Virus record (IMG/VR): IMGVR_UViG_3300043431_000314
Span: 1 to 33,305 of that record
DNA from: a virus
DNA length: 33,305 nucleotides
Strand: one strand, 5' to 3'
The notes beneath the pieces are model-generated. The model was not told the DNA's origin. It ran no database searches and saw nothing but the letters and a program-made list of their open reading frames with translations. How positions within the stretch are numbered: the stretch's first letter is position 1; each line of letters begins with the position of its first letter. A program made the position numbers and the translations under genes. This document shows positions 5,217 to 30,887 of this stretch, piece after piece.

Positions 5217-5762
5217 ATGGCAATCACGCTCATCACCACAGTTGGCGGCAGCACGTCGGACAGCTACGCGAGCGCCGATGAATTCGACACGTTTCTAAAG
5301 CGGCGTCGGAATGGTGATGACGTGTTGAATATGAGTCCTGATAAGAAAGCGCAAGGCCTATTGGAAGCGATGACGTTTCTTGCGCCGCTGCATTGGCCGG
5401 GTTCAGTTGTTTCAGCAACGCAGGCATTGGCGCATCCGCGCTATGGCTTGCCGAAGCCGAACAGCGAAAGCTTGGATTATTACTCGGAAAGCAGTCAAAG
5501 CAATCTCCCGATTTATTACGAAAGCACAGAGATTGCACCGCCTGTCAAAAACGCTCAATGCGAACTGGCGTATTTGATCTTGAGCGAGCAATTCAACACA
5601 GACGAAAGCGAGTCGGCGGCAATTCAAAGCTTTTCGGCTGACGGCGTTTCGGTCAACTACGCCACAGGTGCGCGCACGCGCTCAAAGTCCGGTCAATTGC
5701 CGCCCTCGGTTGGGCGCATTCTTGCGGGCCTCGTGATGGGCACGCAATTCAGGTTGGGCTAA
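5217..5762 (+). CDS. head-tail connector (DnaT-like phage protein family)
   Basis: Probable adaptor protein that docks on the portal ring. The 181-residue product has the pattern of the phage family annotated 'putative DnaT-like': an opening SYASADEFDTFLKRR, a mid helix (GLLEAMTFLAPLHWPG), and a turn with a regularly placed Pro (ALAHPRYGLPKPN). Members typically occupy this place, first after coat, and are thought to be head-tail adaptors rather than DNA-binding proteins. The stop overlaps the next start by one base (TAATG). Confidence 0.72.
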   Translation: MAITLITTVGGSTSDSYASADEFDTFLKRRRNGDDVLNMSPDKKAQGLLEAMTFLAPLHWPGSVVSATQALAHPRYGLPKPNSESLDYYSESSQSNLPIYYESTEIAPPVKNAQCELAYLILSEQFNTDESESAAIQSFSADGVSVNYATGARTRSKSGQLPPSVGRILAGLVMGTQFRLG

Positions 5763-6134: not shown

Positions 6135-6488
6135 ATGGAAGTCACGATCACTGTTGACCAAAACGCAATTGATAGCCTCATCCGCGAAGCGGCTGGCTCG
6201 TTGATAAAAGAAGTCACGTTCGGCATCGAAAGAGAAATGAAGCTTTCGTTTGCTGAACCGAAAAGCGGCAACGTGCGCCGCAGTGATGGGCACATCGCGT
6301 CGGCACGCGGGGAAGCGCCCGCCGTTGACACAGGCTTTTTGACGAATTCGATTTTGACAGAAATGACGGGGCCGCTTGAAGGGCTTGTCACAGTCGGCGC
6401 GGAGTACGGCTTTTTCCTTGAGGAAATGCTTGATCGCCCGTTTGTTGAACCTGCGATTGATAAGGCAATTGAGGCGGCGTACAGCTAA
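6135..6488 (+). CDS. HK97 gp10-like tail-completion (neck) protein
   Basis: Neck protein of 117 residues. The motif SARGEAPAVDTGFLTNSI followed by VTVGAEYGFFLEE and RPFVEPAIDKA is the classic HK97-gp10/lambda-Z-type pattern (G-x-APxVDTGxLxxSI, VGxxY...LE, RPFLxPA). Such proteins join the completed tail to the head. The start lies four bases past the previous stop. The stop overlaps the next start (TAATG). Confidence 0.85.
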   Translation: MEVTITVDQNAIDSLIREAAGSLIKEVTFGIEREMKLSFAEPKSGNVRRSDGHIASARGEAPAVDTGFLTNSILTEMTGPLEGLVTVGAEYGFFLEEMLDRPFVEPAIDKAIEAAYS

Positions 6489-22021: not shown

Positions 22022-23254
22022 ATGGCGAAAACACAAGCATTTACTTTAGGCCATTTGGCCTTTATTGCCGCGCAGTTTAACGGCAATCAATCGCAAACGG
22101 CTGAAACGCTTGGCATCCATCGCGATTCAGTCAGCAAGGCAGTCAAAGCGCAACGCAAGGGGCAATTGCAGGGCGTGCAGCCAATGCCGCTTTCCGAGCA
22201 ACCCGCAACGCAGCCAGCGGAGCCAGCACCGCCAGCCGCTCCGCCTGAGCTTGTCAAGGCAGACCGCAGGCACGCGAGCGTATCAGCCGAAATCAAAGAC
22301 TTACGCACGAAATACAAAGAAGCTATTGAACAGCTTGGCCTAAGTGAGCAGCGGCTTTCATTGTTGGAAGGCTACGGCGATTCGTCAAAGATCAAACCGA
22401 TCGCAATCAACCGCAGCTTAACAGGTGGGCAGGCAGCGGCAATTATCCAGGCAACCGACTGGCACATTGAGGAACGCGTAGACCGTCACTTAGTCAACGG
22501 CCTCAACGAATACAATCCCGAAATCGCACGCAAACGCTCGGCCAATTTCTTTAGCAACGCTTTGAAGCTCGTGCGCAAAGAGCGAAAAGATGTGGCAATT
22601 GAAACGCTGATATTGCACATAGGCGGCGATATAATAACGGGGTATATTCACGAAGAATTGGTCGAATCAAACTTTCTCAGCCCAACAGAATCCATTTTGC
22701 TTGCTCAAGAATTTTTGATTGGCGGCATCAAGCGGCTTCGTGATGATGGCAACTTCAAAACAATCCGCGTTGTCTGTAATTACGGCAACCACGGGCGCAC
22801 GACGCCGAAGATTCGCGTTTCAACAGGGCATCAGAATAGTTACGAATGGCTGCTTTACAAGCTTATGGCACGAGATTTTGCCGACGATCCGGTTGTGCAA
22901 TTTCAAGTAGCTGATGCTTACGTTGAATACGTTGACATCTTCGATTATACGCTGCGCTTTCACCACGGGGATGCTATCAAGTACGGCGGCGGCATCGGTG
23001 GTGTAACAATCCCGCTCATCAAGTACATTCATCGCTTGAACGGGCAACGCCACGCGCAAGGCGATTTCATTGGGCATTATCACCAGCTTACGCCTTACAA
23101 CCGCGCCTCCAAGTTTGCGATCAATGGCAGCTTGATAGGCTTCAATCCCTACGCGCTGCGCATTGGCGCATCACCTGAGCCGCCTCTGCAAAACTTTCAG
23201 CTTGTCGCGGCAGGGAAGGGCTTCACCGTTCACGCTCCGATCTTCGTGGAGTAA
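22022..23254 (+). CDS. HTH-containing metallophosphoesterase
   Basis: Calcineurin-like phosphoesterase, 410 residues. Metal-site motifs appear in order: ATDWHIE (D146, H148), HIGGD (D203), CNYGNHGR (N256, H257), FHHGD (H314, H315, D317) and GHYHQ (H352, H354). The N-terminal 45 residues form a helix-turn-helix (QTAETLGIHRDSVSKAVKAQ), followed by a Pro/Ala linker (52-75) and a coiled coil (83-117). The combination suggests a DNA-directed nuclease or phosphatase, but substrate is unknown. The start lacks a clear Shine-Dalgarno sequence. It follows the tail genes, so it is probably transcribed late. Confidence 0.85.
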   Translation: MAKTQAFTLGHLAFIAAQFNGNQSQTAETLGIHRDSVSKAVKAQRKGQLQGVQPMPLSEQPATQPAEPAPPAAPPELVKADRRHASVSAEIKDLRTKYKEAIEQLGLSEQRLSLLEGYGDSSKIKPIAINRSLTGGQAAAIIQATDWHIEERVDRHLVNGLNEYNPEIARKRSANFFSNALKLVRKERKDVAIETLILHIGGDIITGYIHEELVESNFLSPTESILLAQEFLIGGIKRLRDDGNFKTIRVVCNYGNHGRTTPKIRVSTGHQNSYEWLLYKLMARDFADDPVVQFQVADAYVEYVDIFDYTLRFHHGDAIKYGGGIGGVTIPLIKYIHRLNGQRHAQGDFIGHYHQLTPYNRASKFAINGSLIGFNPYALRIGASPEPPLQNFQLVAAGKGFTVHAPIFVE

Positions 23255-24038: not shown

Positions 24039-24214
24039 GCGGCCTCCGCCAATTGCTCAGCTTCTACCATTTCGGCCTCCGCCAAGATCGCTAAAATATC
24101 GGCGTCGTCATTCGGATTGTCGGATTCGATCAGGCTCAAAAGTTGCTCAAGCTGTGCGTCGTAATCCGGTTGCGCGTCCTCTGTTAAGGTTGAGCTCAAT
24201 TGCACGTCTGACAT
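24035..24214 (-). CDS. small acidic protein, 59 aa
   Basis: Strong start: AGGAG lies eight bases before the ATG on the minus strand. The product is very acidic (MSDVQLSSTLTEDAQPDYDA, then QLLSLIESDNPNDDADILAI and an Ala/Glu-rich helix), with almost no basic residues. Small acidic early proteins of phages often mimic DNA or bind host proteins, but nothing specific points to that here. Coupled to the next gene by a four-base GTGA overlap. Confidence 0.75.
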   Translation of the reverse strand: MSDVQLSSTLTEDAQPDYDAQLEQLLSLIESDNPNDDADILAILAEAEMVEAEQLAEAA

Positions 24215-24652
24215 TTCGATCTCCTAATCTTTCGATTTTCTGCGCGGCTGCAATCGTAAATGCCCGCACTTCTTTATTCAAAACCACATCAGGCACTAGG
24301 CCCGCTTCCTTGTCCGCTTTTGTCGCTCGGCACCACTTGCCGCCCTTGAAAACGTGCAATCTTTTCCACAGGGCGCGCACGTCCGCGCTTGTCGTTTTCC
24401 ATTCGGTGCGCCATTCGCACGGCAGCGTTTTGCCTGTTGGTGCGGGGTTTTGGTGCACGCTGGTGCGCGTTTTTGGTGCGATTGCAAGCAAAGGGGTTAC
24501 GGGTTTCGCCACTGGTGCACGCACTGGTGCGGTGTCTTGGTGCACAGCTTCGGCGCCAACGCTCGGCACCAAGTGCAACTTTTGGTGCGCGGCTTGGTGC
24601 GGCACTGGTGCGGCGTTGCTTGGTGCGGAGTTTTCCACAGGCTGCGGCCCGG
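24147..24652 (-). CDS. uncertain open frame without ATG, across the repeat region
   Basis: The 438 bases between the genes at 24653 and 24214 hold one long open minus frame. Inside it there is no ATG. Candidate GTG/TTG starts have no clear ribosome binding site, and the frame runs 68 bases into the 59-aa gene. The first half is Ala/Pro/His/Gln-rich because it translates the TGGTGC repeats. The second half (ALWKRLHVFKGGKWCRATKA, PDVVLNKEVRAFTIAAAQ) looks more protein-like. It may be a degenerate gene or a real one with an unusual start. The main content of this stretch is probably the repeat array. Confidence 0.3.
24362..24370 (+). promoter_or_regulatory. DnaA-box-like site (TTTTCCACA)
   Basis: Matches the relaxed DnaA box TTWTNCACA. 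A second identical copy is at 24631-24639, same orientation. The two bracket the YTGGTGCR repeat array. Confidence 0.5.
24438..24626 (+). repeat. YTGGTGCR repeat array (11 direct copies)
   Basis: Copies of TGGTGC start at 24438, 24451, 24461, 24474, 24513, 24525, 24538, 24583, 24595, 24606 and 24621. Each is preceded by T or C and followed by G or A. They form groups of 4, 3 and 4 with 10-15 base spacing inside groups and 39 and 45 between groups. Inverted copies (GCACCA) are at 24566 and 24330. The copies fall in all three reading frames, so the DNA sequence, not a peptide, is conserved. Confidence 0.85.
24631..24639 (+). promoter_or_regulatory. DnaA-box-like site (TTTTCCACA), second copy
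   Basis: Identical to the site at 24362-24370 and on the other side of the repeat array. An AT-rich stretch lies just beyond it (about 24736-24796). Confidence 0.5.
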
Positions 24653-24868
24653 CTATTCCGGCGGTGGAAGTGTCTCGCCGATTACCTGCCCAGCCTTGCT
24701 GAACAGGACTGATGCCCGCTCCGTTATCAGTGCCGACATTGCAAAAACTGCCAGTAAGCAAAACTTCATTTTTTGCATCACCGTCCAAGTTTTTACTTGA
24801 CGCAGCACCGGGATTAATTCTTGCGGAATGCCGAATGTTCGCATTACCCGAAGTGTCAAAGTTGCCAT
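24653..24868 (-). CDS. small membrane-associated protein, 71 aa
   Basis: Clear ribosome binding site (GGAAGGGGAG) before ATG 24868. The product starts MATLTLRVMRTFGIPQELIP and contains one hydrophobic helix at about residues 34-46 (MKFCLLAVFAMSALI), with a short C-terminal part ending ETLPPPE. It could be a single-pass membrane protein. It follows a two-helix membrane protein gene and may belong to the same lysis- or envelope-related set. Function unknown. Confidence 0.68.
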   Translation of the reverse strand: MATLTLRVMRTFGIPQELIPVLRQVKTWTVMQKMKFCLLAVFAMSALITERASVLFSKAGQVIGETLPPPE

Positions 24869-24916
24869 GCCGCTCCCCTTCCCTTTCGGGTGTTTCTAAT
24901 GTTTCTGCTTCGTCGC

Positions 24917-25075
24917 CTACATGTGAACTCCGGCCAGCAGGTTGATTGCCGCTATTGCCGCAAGAATCGCGATGACGAGCCTCCACGCCGTCATCTTCCT
25001 GGCTGTCTTGTCGCTGAAAATCCATAGCGCCACTAACAGGCTGAACAGCCCCGCCACTATCGCAAATGTGTTCAT
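24917..25075 (-). CDS. two-helix membrane protein, 52 aa (holin-like size)
   Basis: ATG 25075 is preceded by GGAAGGAAT. Two hydrophobic helices are evident: AIVAGLFSLLVALWIF (about 5-20) and LVIAILAAIAAINLLAG (about 33-49), joined by a basic loop (SDKTARKMTAWR). This size and topology fit a small holin, antiholin or membrane anchor, but no endolysin is visible in the window to confirm a lysis cassette. A longer frame across the same bases was rejected on composition. Confidence 0.7.
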   Translation of the reverse strand: MNTFAIVAGLFSLLVALWIFSDKTARKMTAWRLVIAILAAIAAINLLAGVHM

Positions 25076-25099
25076 AGTTATTCCTTCCAGCCCGGTCTT

Positions 25100-25642
25100 T
25101 CACCGGGCCTGATCTTTTGGGACTCGTGCCCGTGCTGTTCCAACCGCGAAAAACACGAGCGATAGAGCAAGCTCAATAAACCCCAGCAACGCAGCAATCG
25201 TGGCAACCTCGTCACCGAACGCTTTGTCAAGTTTGCTGGCTTGCGTCGCACTTAGCCCAATTTGGTGCGCAATCGTTTTTGAGGTCGTTTTGCTGGCTGC
25301 ACTAACCCCTGCCTCAAATTTCTTCACCTGCGCCAAATTGAATGACTCGACGCCCGCCGCCTTTGCGCCGTTGTGGATCAGATAACCAGCGTTGCAGGCC
25401 ACGGCAATCGCTAAGACGATTTTCATCAGCGTTTCGCCCTTCACTTCGACGTGGAAGAAAAACAGGGAGACGCAGCCCGCAATGAAGGCAGAGGCAAAAA
25501 CCCACGCGCCGAGCTTCGGCCCGTAAGTCTGGAACGCGGCCCAACCGATTGCGCCAACCAAGACGGCGTGAATGAGAATAAACAAGCTCCACTCGAAAAG
25601 GGAGCGCTTCGTTGTCGTTTGTGAGGTCTTTTCGTTTTCCAT
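25100..25642 (-). CDS. four-helix membrane protein, 180 aa
   Basis: Integral membrane protein. Hydrophobic segments lie at about residues 17-37 (LFILIHAVLVGAIGWAAF), 46-64 (WVFASAFIAGCVSLFFF), 72-92 and 146-167 (ALLGFIELALSLVFFAVG). Between the third and fourth helix is a hydrophilic Ser/Thr/Lys/Ala-rich loop of about 50 residues (QVKKFEAGVSAASKTTSKTI). It has a good AGGTGGAATT ribosome binding site. No family recognised. Its neighbours are also small membrane proteins, so a lysis or superinfection role is conceivable. Confidence 0.72.
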   Translation of the reverse strand: MENEKTSQTTTKRSLFEWSLFILIHAVLVGAIGWAAFQTYGPKLGAWVFASAFIAGCVSLFFFHVEVKGETLMKIVLAIAVACNAGYLIHNGAKAAGVESFNLAQVKKFEAGVSAASKTTSKTIAHQIGLSATQASKLDKAFGDEVATIAALLGFIELALSLVFFAVGTARARVPKDQAR

Positions 25643-28548: not shown

Positions 28549-28730
28549 GCTGCCACCTCCGCAGCTTCCGCTTGCGGGTTCACTTCGAGCACAGTTATGC
28601 GCGCCGCTTGCGGGTTCGCTTCACGCGCTGCCATTACAGCCAAGTTGACCATTTCGCTCATGCTCGTGACAGGCACTTCATAGCGCACGGTCTTGCGTTC
28701 GGTAATTTCTATCTGAGCTTCAAAAGTCAT
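28545..28730 (-). CDS. small protein, 61 aa
   Basis: ATG 28730 lies 11 bases inside the end of the helicase gene, with GGGAGA upstream. Starts MTFEAQIEITERKTVRYEVP, followed by a helix (MSEMVNLAVMAAREANPQAA) and a short strand. It fits a one-domain beta-alpha-beta accessory protein. Function unknown. Confidence 0.68.
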   Translation of the reverse strand: MTFEAQIEITERKTVRYEVPVTSMSEMVNLAVMAAREANPQAARITVLEVNPQAEAAEVAA

Positions 28731-30096
28731 TGCCAATCTCCCTATTTTCAAACCAAGCGAATGTTGGCTCCCAATTGAGCGTGATTGTGCGCAAAGCGCC
28801 ATTGCGTTGCTTTGCAATGTTCCATTCTGCCTCTGTTTCGTCGGCGTTCTTGTCGTAGTAATGCTCTCGATGCGGAAAGATAACTACGTCCGCGTTTTGC
28901 TCCAATGATCCAGAATCACGCAGATCTGATAGCTGCGGCCTTTTGTTCGCGCGACTTTCATTCGCGCGGCTCAACTGGCTGAGCAAGATGTAGGGGATGC
29001 CAAATTGCTTAGCCAATGCCTTTTGATATTTCGTAATCCAGTCAAGCAAAACGTTATTATTGTCCGTGTGTCGTCCGCTGTACTGGCAAAAGCCTAAGTG
29101 GTCGCAAAACACAGCGTTGATCCGCTTATGCTTCCGTTCGATCTTGCGCAGAATTGCCCCTTGCGACTGAACAGACGCGGCATCTTGCCCGCCGTAAATC
29201 GTCAATGGCCATCCGGCAATGCGCGCCTGAGCATCGGCAAGCCGCGTCCATTCCTCACGCGTCAGTCGTTTGTTGCGCGCGCGCTGGCTGTCAACTTTGG
29301 CAATCCCGCAAGCCAAGCGCGCGGCGAACGACTCTGGCGACATTTCGAGCGAAAAAACTATGGTCTGTCCTTCGTCGTTAAATCGGCTTTCAGCTACGCC
29401 TTGCACGAGTCGCGCGGCTGCGCTGGTTTTGCCCATTGAGGGGCGCGCGCCTACCAGAATTAAATCTTCGCGCTGCATTCCGCCGAGCGTGTAATCAAGC
29501 GCATTCAGCCCGGTCGCCACGCCTAGAAACGGCTTTTCGCTGGCGTACAGTTCGCCAAGCTCGCGCAGGTAAAGCTCAACCGCTTCGCCGCCCGTGTAAC
29601 CTTCGCTAATCGTGCGTCCGGCTTCAATGTCGTCAAGGTCTTTGCGTAGCGTTGTGATCTGAGCATCCGGCAAAATTTCGTCATCAATCGCGCGCGTCAT
29701 TGCCGCATTGCTCGCGTTTATCAGCCTGCGCGCGGTGGATGCGTCAAGCACGAGCCTGATGTACGGCTCAACGTTCGAGAAACGCGGGCAACCATCGAAA
29801 AGTGAAGCGATGTAAGCCGCGCCGCCCACGCCGTCAATGTCACCCGTCGCGCGCAGTTCGTCACAAAGTGAAACAGGCTCAACCATTCCCGTCCGCTCGT
29901 GAAGCTTGCACATAGCGGCAAAAATCTTGCCGTTGCTTGGCACGAAGAAATCGCGCGCAGTCAGTCGCGCGGCAACTTCGCCAAGCACGAGATTGTCTAG
30001 CAGGATGATGCCTAGCAGCATTCGCTCCGCGTCCGTGTTGTGCGGGAGCGGTTTGTCTAAAACGTCTTTGAGTTGTGAGGATTTCGCGTTGCTCAT
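28720..30096 (-). CDS. replicative DNA helicase, DnaB family
   Basis: Hexameric helicase of 458 residues that unwinds DNA ahead of the fork. The N-terminal helical domain (HNTDAERMLLGIILLDN) has the standard DnaB opening. Walker A is GARPSMGKT (about 216-224), the SLEMS motif follows near 249, Walker B is INAVFCDHLG (about 326-335) and the late RDSGSLEQNADVVIF (393-407) matches DnaB motif 4. Start chosen at ATG 30096, which overlaps the initiator stop (ATGA). It is coupled to the initiator and would be loaded at the repeats inside that gene. Confidence 0.95.
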   Translation of the reverse strand: MSNAKSSQLKDVLDKPLPHNTDAERMLLGIILLDNLVLGEVAARLTARDFFVPSNGKIFAAMCKLHERTGMVEPVSLCDELRATGDIDGVGGAAYIASLFDGCPRFSNVEPYIRLVLDASTARRLINASNAAMTRAIDDEILPDAQITTLRKDLDDIEAGRTISEGYTGGEAVELYLRELGELYASEKPFLGVATGLNALDYTLGGMQREDLILVGARPSMGKTSAAARLVQGVAESRFNDEGQTIVFSLEMSPESFAARLACGIAKVDSQRARNKRLTREEWTRLADAQARIAGWPLTIYGGQDAASVQSQGAILRKIERKHKRINAVFCDHLGFCQYSGRHTDNNNVLLDWITKYQKALAKQFGIPYILLSQLSRANESRANKRPQLSDLRDSGSLEQNADVVIFPHREHYYDKNADETEAEWNIAKQRNGALRTITLNWEPTFAWFENREIGNDF

Positions 30097-30887
30097 TTTG
30101 CTTTTTGCTGACAGGTGCATTCTTCGGGCGGGTTCAATGCCACGCCGTTACGCTTGAAAATAAATCCTGAGCCATCACAGGCACAGGCGCGTTTCGCAGG
30201 CGTCGCTCGCGCGCTCTTTCGAGCCTGCCACGCTGCCACCGCTTGATCGTCTTTGCCGTTTTTCAACGCCCACCGCGCGCGATTGATCGCTTCCGCGTCG
30301 GTCACGCATTTGCCCATTTCACGGTGAAAGCTTTCGTAGGTTTGAAAATCGTACTTGCCAACGTTTGCGCTCCCGTCCCTAACCATTGCCGTCGCTGCTG
30401 CTGCGACCCGCTGATAGTGCTTCTGCTCAGCAGCAACGGTTAATATGGTTAATGGTTCTATGTCTATATATGCACCACTCGTTTTGTCACCCTTTGGCTC
30501 GATTTTGTCACCCTTTGATGGCTCGTTTGTCACCCTTTGCGGTTCAATAGGTGCGATTTTGTCACCCTTTGCTGTCACCCTTTCAGCGTCTAAAGGGTGA
30601 AGACTGTTGTCACCCTTTGCGACTTGCGGAAGTGCAATTGTGTAGCGCGTAAAATTACCTTTTCCGTTGCCGCGAACGATTAAAAGTTCGCCTGTTTTTT
30701 CCAGTTCTTTGATGTAGCGGATCAATGTGCGCTCTGAAAGATTGGCTTCGGATGAAATGAGTTCGTATCCGGCTGACGCTGTGAACGTATCCGCGCTCGC
30801 GTGCGTGGCAATGACCATCAGGACAAGCCGTGCCTCCGCTTTTGTGCGTGAATATTTCATTACTGATTCAACCGCCTGATAGCTCAT
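30093..30887 (-). CDS. winged-helix replication initiator (lambda O-like)
   Basis: Likely origin-binding protein of 264 residues. The N-terminal 85 residues form a helix-turn-helix (SRTKAEARLVLMVIATHASA, then SEANLSERTLIRYIKELEKT). Residues about 90-140 hold KGD repeats (VTAKGDKI, SKGDKI, PKGDKT), which are the translation of the DNA repeats, so the linker doubles as the origin. The C-terminal part has CACDGSG and CTC, a possible zinc site, and a helical middle (INRARWALKNGKDDQAVAAW). The stop is coupled to the helicase. GGTGAGCG precedes the ATG. Confidence 0.85.
   Translation of the reverse strand: MSYQAVESVMKYSRTKAEARLVLMVIATHASADTFTASAGYELISSEANLSERTLIRYIKELEKTGELLIVRGNGKGNFTRYTIALPQVAKGDNSLHPLDAERVTAKGDKIAPIEPQRVTNEPSKGDKIEPKGDKTSGAYIDIEPLTILTVAAEQKHYQRVAAAATAMVRDGSANVGKYDFQTYESFHREMGKCVTDAEAINRARWALKNGKDDQAVAAWQARKSARATPAKRACACDGSGFIFKRNGVALNPPEECTCQQKAK
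30438..30619. other. putative replication origin: iterons and AT-rich segment
   Basis: The core TGTCACCCTTT occurs directly at 30485, 30506, 30528, 30560, 30573 and 30608. Four copies share a 14-base form (TTTGTCACCCTTTG). One inverted AAAGGGTGA lies at 30592. Spacings of 21, 22 and 32 fit two and three helical turns. Next to it 30438-30472 is AT-rich (GGTTAATATGGTTAATGG and TCTATATATG), a likely melting region. The whole lies within the initiator gene, as with the lambda origin in O. Confidence 0.82.

Follow-up and report, generated by a model that had tools for sequence, protein, structure and literature searches.

Genome and gene layout

The window, which is the whole stretch of DNA analysed, comprises the 33,305 bases of an IMG/VR virus record. 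A twin record of 48,268 bases (G001) is 100% identical to it wherever the two were compared, and window positions 6194-6320 are present at both ends of the twin, giving a 127-bp overlap. Once the 14.8 kb missing from the window is added from the twin, the phage closes as a 48,141-bp circle. The phage is temperate, with its late genes on the plus strand and its early genes on the minus strand, the latter running from about 33.3 kb down to 23.8 kb. Genes for a RecT-like protein, an O-like replication initiator (30093-30887, minus strand; HTH_36 and the PHROG annotation replication initiation O-like), a DnaB-like replicative helicase (28720-30120, minus strand; PHROG 19, E = 2.6e-79) and a RusA-like resolvase are found in the early block. 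The rest of the genome carries genes for an endolysin and a tyrosine integrase (L128 4671-5855, equivalent to genome 37863-39047), together with terL (genome 46.6-48.1 kb) and a terS candidate (L128 13111-13524). Positions 22022-23254, where the late genes end, encode an N-terminal HTH fused to a phosphoesterase/exonuclease-like domain (PHROG 284).

Where the early and late gene blocks converge at their ends, an array of TGGTGC hexamers is located within an orphan open frame of 318 codons (24147-25103, minus strand) whose GTG start overlaps the upstream stop codon (GTGA). The frame has no family match in Pfam or PHROGs. Apart from the twin record, neither a homologue of the frame nor a relative carrying the array region was found among phages, plasmids, and viral and genome contigs. 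A relative identified by its TerL (L131/G002, 71%) has the packaging and capsid side alone in common with the phage and lacks the array; a TerL scan of the genome contigs gave no match. The C-terminal 96 codons of the frame score as coding. A single-sequence structure model of these residues is of low confidence (pLDDT 62.6), and its fold matches are meaningless (E ≥ 2.2). Another frame in the upstream half of the 318-codon frame contains two small nested ORFs, each with a good ribosome-binding sequence. One encodes a putative membrane protein of 71 aa with a hydrophobic segment recognized by eye (24653-24868, minus strand), and the second (24917-25075) also encodes a small putative membrane protein.

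Organization of the TGGTGC array

The array consists of 11 exact direct copies of YTGGTGCR on the plus strand (24437-24627), the first at 24437-24444 and the last at 24620-24627. The hexamer cores start at 24438, 24451, 24461 and 24474 in the first group, at 24513, 24525 and 24538 in the second, and at 24583, 24595, 24606 and 24621 in the third, with successive core spacings of 13, 10, 13, 39, 12, 13, 45, 12, 11 and 15 bp. The original prediction of eleven copies in about 190 bases, in groups of four, three and four, is exact on recount. Its statement that the copies lie about one helical turn apart holds only loosely: spacings within the groups are 10-15 bp, but no phasing at 10.5 bp is seen (Rayleigh R = 0.31, p = 0.33), and the best-fitting period of 12.1 bp falls short of significance (p = 0.13). 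All copies share the same six core bases, and the Y and R positions on either side of the core show a bias. Column information is limited to these 8 bp, nearly all flanking columns being at random level.

Several inverted copies add to the earlier description. An exact inverted TGGTGC (GCACCA on the plus strand) lies between groups 2 and 3 at 24566-24571, and the inverted copies with one mismatch include a TGGCGC at 24553. An isolated inverted TGGTGC lies outside the array (24330-24335, minus strand), and a 17-nt repeat around it is shared with 24560-24576 (88%).

The array appears to be selected at the level of nucleic acid

Dinucleotide shuffling of the window (300 shuffles) produced no more than three TGGTGC copies per 200 bp. 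Shuffling codon order on the encoding strand gave at most five copies in 20,000 trials (mean 0.78), and synonymous resampling of the same strand at most six in 20,000 (mean 1.36). As had been claimed, the copies fall in all three frames of the minus-strand ORF, with the cores split 6/4/1. Because both codon-level nulls fall short of eleven, information stops at 8 bp and three frames are used, this one sequence supports selection on DNA or RNA and not on a peptide repeat. The idea that the DNA rather than a protein repeat is selected is thereby upheld at the nucleic-acid level. With five of its six frames open, the array stretch is of uncertain coding status; the nucleic-acid-level conclusion holds either way.

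An Ala/Pro/His/Gln-rich disordered linker, expanded by slippage and lacking a function at the DNA level, would be in keeping with the position of the array in an open frame, where six copies read as Ala-Pro and four as His-Gln, with the multiply open region and with the coding appearance of the 96 codons downstream. Such a linker is harder to reconcile with the use of three frames, with spacers that are largely unrelated, with conservation that ends at the 8-bp motif, and with the shortfall of both codon-level nulls. This protein-level or neutral reading retains some weight because there is one sequence alone to judge from, although we regard it as distinctly unlikely. Selection could also act on RNA. 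The eleven copies share one orientation and their complement lies on the presumed early transcript, in which YGCACCAR repeats might serve as protein-binding sites or as a sponge. The predicted RNA structure is no more stable than that of shuffled sequences (z = 0.31), there is no match in Rfam, no tRNA was found and no known binder was recognized, and we consider a role in the transcript very improbable.

Two further arrays mark a probable origin and a likely attachment site

An unbiased 7-mer cluster scan over the whole 48,141-bp circle revealed three strong arrays and little else, while ten Markov-model control sequences yielded one weak cluster at most. Besides the TGGTGC array, the scan recovered a cluster of six TTGTCACCC/TGTCACCCTTT iterons (30484-30621, plus strand; the six TGTCACCCTTT copies at 30485-30608) inside the O-like gene. 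This cluster, also described as six copies of TGTCACCC, is a lambda-like origin candidate. The separate repeats within the initiator gene mentioned in the original prediction are thus present, and their arrangement points to a probable lambda-type, primary origin. The TGTCACCCTTT repeats partly translate as KGDK in the O-like protein. The third array comprises five copies of GTTTCCG in two blocks 205 bp apart (genome 39208-39452; L128 6016-6260; placed at 39208-39444 by the scan), directly downstream of the integrase gene, and likely represents the arm-type sites of attP, judging by form and position. Both arrays, one in the O-like gene and one on the integrase side, are found at places where arrays of protein-binding sites would be expected. 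Because these places are taken, exclusion makes it unlikely that the TGGTGC array serves as main origin or as attP.

In several viral contigs, TGGTGCA arrays with a spacing of 10-12 bp adjoin an integrase gene, in some cases beside tRNA genes or tRNA-like ends. By analogy, the copies described here might be arm-type sites for the tyrosine integrase of this phage. Its integrase gene, however, lies 13 kb from them and is accompanied by a GTTTCCG array of its own. As it is GTTTCCG and not TGGTGC that lies beside the integrase gene, we rejected the assignment as attP, which appears highly improbable.

DnaA-box-like sites bracket a GC-rich array

The DnaA-box-like sequence TTTTCCACA occurs exactly at 24362-24370 on the left flank and at 24631-24639 on the right, both on the plus strand and both fitting the consensus. 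An identical site on each side of the array, as predicted, is therefore present, and the pair is the sole one: neither strand of the 48,141-bp genome contains TTTTCCACA anywhere else. The DnaA-box consensus TTWTNCACA has four matches in the whole genome, these two included. Predicted DnaA boxes adjoin the repeats here, as DnaA boxes do in plasmid-type iteron/DnaA-box origins. A role in replication finds its best evidence in these predicted boxes, although the argument is post hoc.

The base composition is less suggestive of an origin. The array is GC-rich (28-48% AT), and the nearest AT-rich 40-mer (67.5% AT) begins at 24739. Of the AT-rich sequence proposed just beyond one side, what stands is that the AT content rises modestly some 110 bp away; no AT tract adjoins the array. 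The array also lies near the cumulative GC-skew maximum, opposite to the expected position of an origin, an argument that is weak because phage skew also tracks gene direction.

An auxiliary or lytic-stage second origin, at which an initiator would bind the TGGTGC iterons and host DnaA the TTTTCCACA flanks, would account for the iteron-like density of the array and for its bracketing by two exact DnaA-consensus sites. However, the phage already has an iteron cluster in its O-like gene, the TGGTGC motif is shorter than usual iterons and unlike the O-gene iteron TTGTCACCC, and the array is GC-rich without an adjacent AT tract and near the skew maximum, not the minimum. A second initiator gene was not recognized, and Pfam and PHROGs searches of the orphan frame and its neighbours found no initiator family. 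We consider a second origin unlikely. The original prediction offered a replication origin or a multi-protein binding site; a binding site stands as the general reading, whereas an origin at this place is not supported, because an O-gene candidate exists and the array is GC-rich, unphased and near the skew maximum.

The hexamer recurs in arrays of other viruses

Viral contigs were scanned for TGGTGC clusters, and the family of the neighbouring gene was confirmed by Pfam in ten cases. Among the matches listed, most clusters are in-frame codon repeats, and those that are out of frame include exact tandem repeats and short arrays at 10-12 bp near integrase or primase genes. Tyrosine integrases are the neighbours in L147, L158, L165, L172, L138 and L178, and D5/primase genes in L145, L079, L164 and L174. 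Direct repeats resembling TGGTGCARAC, in two blocks, are found in L145 (about 3378), L146 (59-150), L164 (about 1111) and L079 (about 8107 and 8179); such arrays immediately downstream of D5-type primase genes are possibly of an origin type. In L246, GCACCA repeats with spacings of 12, 7, 12 and 13 (about 5381-5446) lie over the start of a terS gene and form a possible pac site. Among the loci examined, this phage and its twin record alone have eleven irregularly spaced copies in three frames. The recurrence of the hexamer suggests that arrays of such form are typical of protein-binding sites, and does not imply a shared binder. The literature on the motif and on phages with iterons or second origins yielded nothing usable.

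The locus L170 gave rise to the idea that the product of the HTH-exonuclease gene (22022-23254) might be the partner of the array. The pairing was dropped because the L170 protein gives no tblastn alignment, and L004, the only other relative, is arrayless across 8.6 kb.

A packaging-initiation site, at which the small terminase or an associated protein would bind the hexamers and start headful packaging, is a further candidate. In form the array resembles P1 pac, with grouped hexamers within a gene over a comparable length (PMC10028697), and the L246 array, built of the same hexamer, runs over the start of a terS gene. The circular assembly with its 127-bp overlap is compatible with circularly permuted DNA, but such an overlap may be an assembler artefact only. 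While the k-mer scan shows no other array near terS, the terS and terL genes (genome about 46.3-48.1 kb), the usual neighbours of a pac site, are some 22 kb from the TGGTGC array, and a link between the small terminase of this phage and TGGTGC is conjectural. We consider a pac-like site improbable as a specific assignment.

A putative multi-site binding platform

We propose, with a probability of roughly 0.6, that the array is a multi-site binding platform for a putative sequence-specific protein. Its eleven sites, with one or two inverted ones, would each bind the same protein, and the molecules loaded over some 190 bp would build a large nucleoprotein complex. Binding of a protein is what we infer from the pattern of copies; no cognate protein was recognized. 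The irregular, unphased spacing, unlike that of the integrase-side arrays of other viruses, speaks against such a platform. Its most likely jobs would be packaging initiation of the P1 pac type or auxiliary replication, which appear about equally likely, followed by a role in regulation where the gene ends converge. More tentatively, and with some doubt, the array might be a third dedicated nucleoprotein site that serves packaging or a second replication mode through its binder, possibly the C-terminal domain encoded by the orphan frame itself. If a protein does bind here, the phage would have a third DNA assembly site besides its origin and attP where none is expected, and the cognate protein may belong to a family not yet recognized.

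Comparison with known systems

Lambdoid phages carry their replication iterons in the O gene (PMC7466680). The TGGTGC array likewise has repeats within a gene-like frame that appear to be selected as DNA. In contrast to a lambdoid origin, it lies in the ORF at 24147-25103 and not in the initiator gene, its motif is shorter, it is GC-rich and no AT-rich tract adjoins the repeats, and the TGTCACCCTTT iterons of the O gene are separate from it.

The same hexamer is repeated about one helical turn apart beside the integrase genes of other viruses, in arrays that we infer from their position to be arm sites. The array of this phage differs in its irregular spacing, its distance of 13 kb from int and the presence of a separate GTTTCCG array at the integrase. 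The arrays next to D5-type primases (L145, L146, L164 and L079) also share the hexamer and the arrangement as direct repeats in two blocks. They have a spacing of 10-11 bp, are intergenic, follow a TGGTGCARAC-like consensus and belong to another replication module, and the likeness seen is one of hexamer and arrangement.

P1 pac spans 161 bp and contains seven TGATCA/G hexamers in two groups within pacA (PMC10028697). Its hexamers carry Dam sites, whereas the motif of the eleven TGGTGC copies contains no GATC. The array occupies an orphan frame a long way from the terminase genes, and is not in or next to a small terminase or pacase gene as P1 pac is. The two are nevertheless alike in that a grouped 6-bp motif extends over about 160-190 bp inside a coding sequence or, in the case of this phage, an open frame of uncertain coding status.
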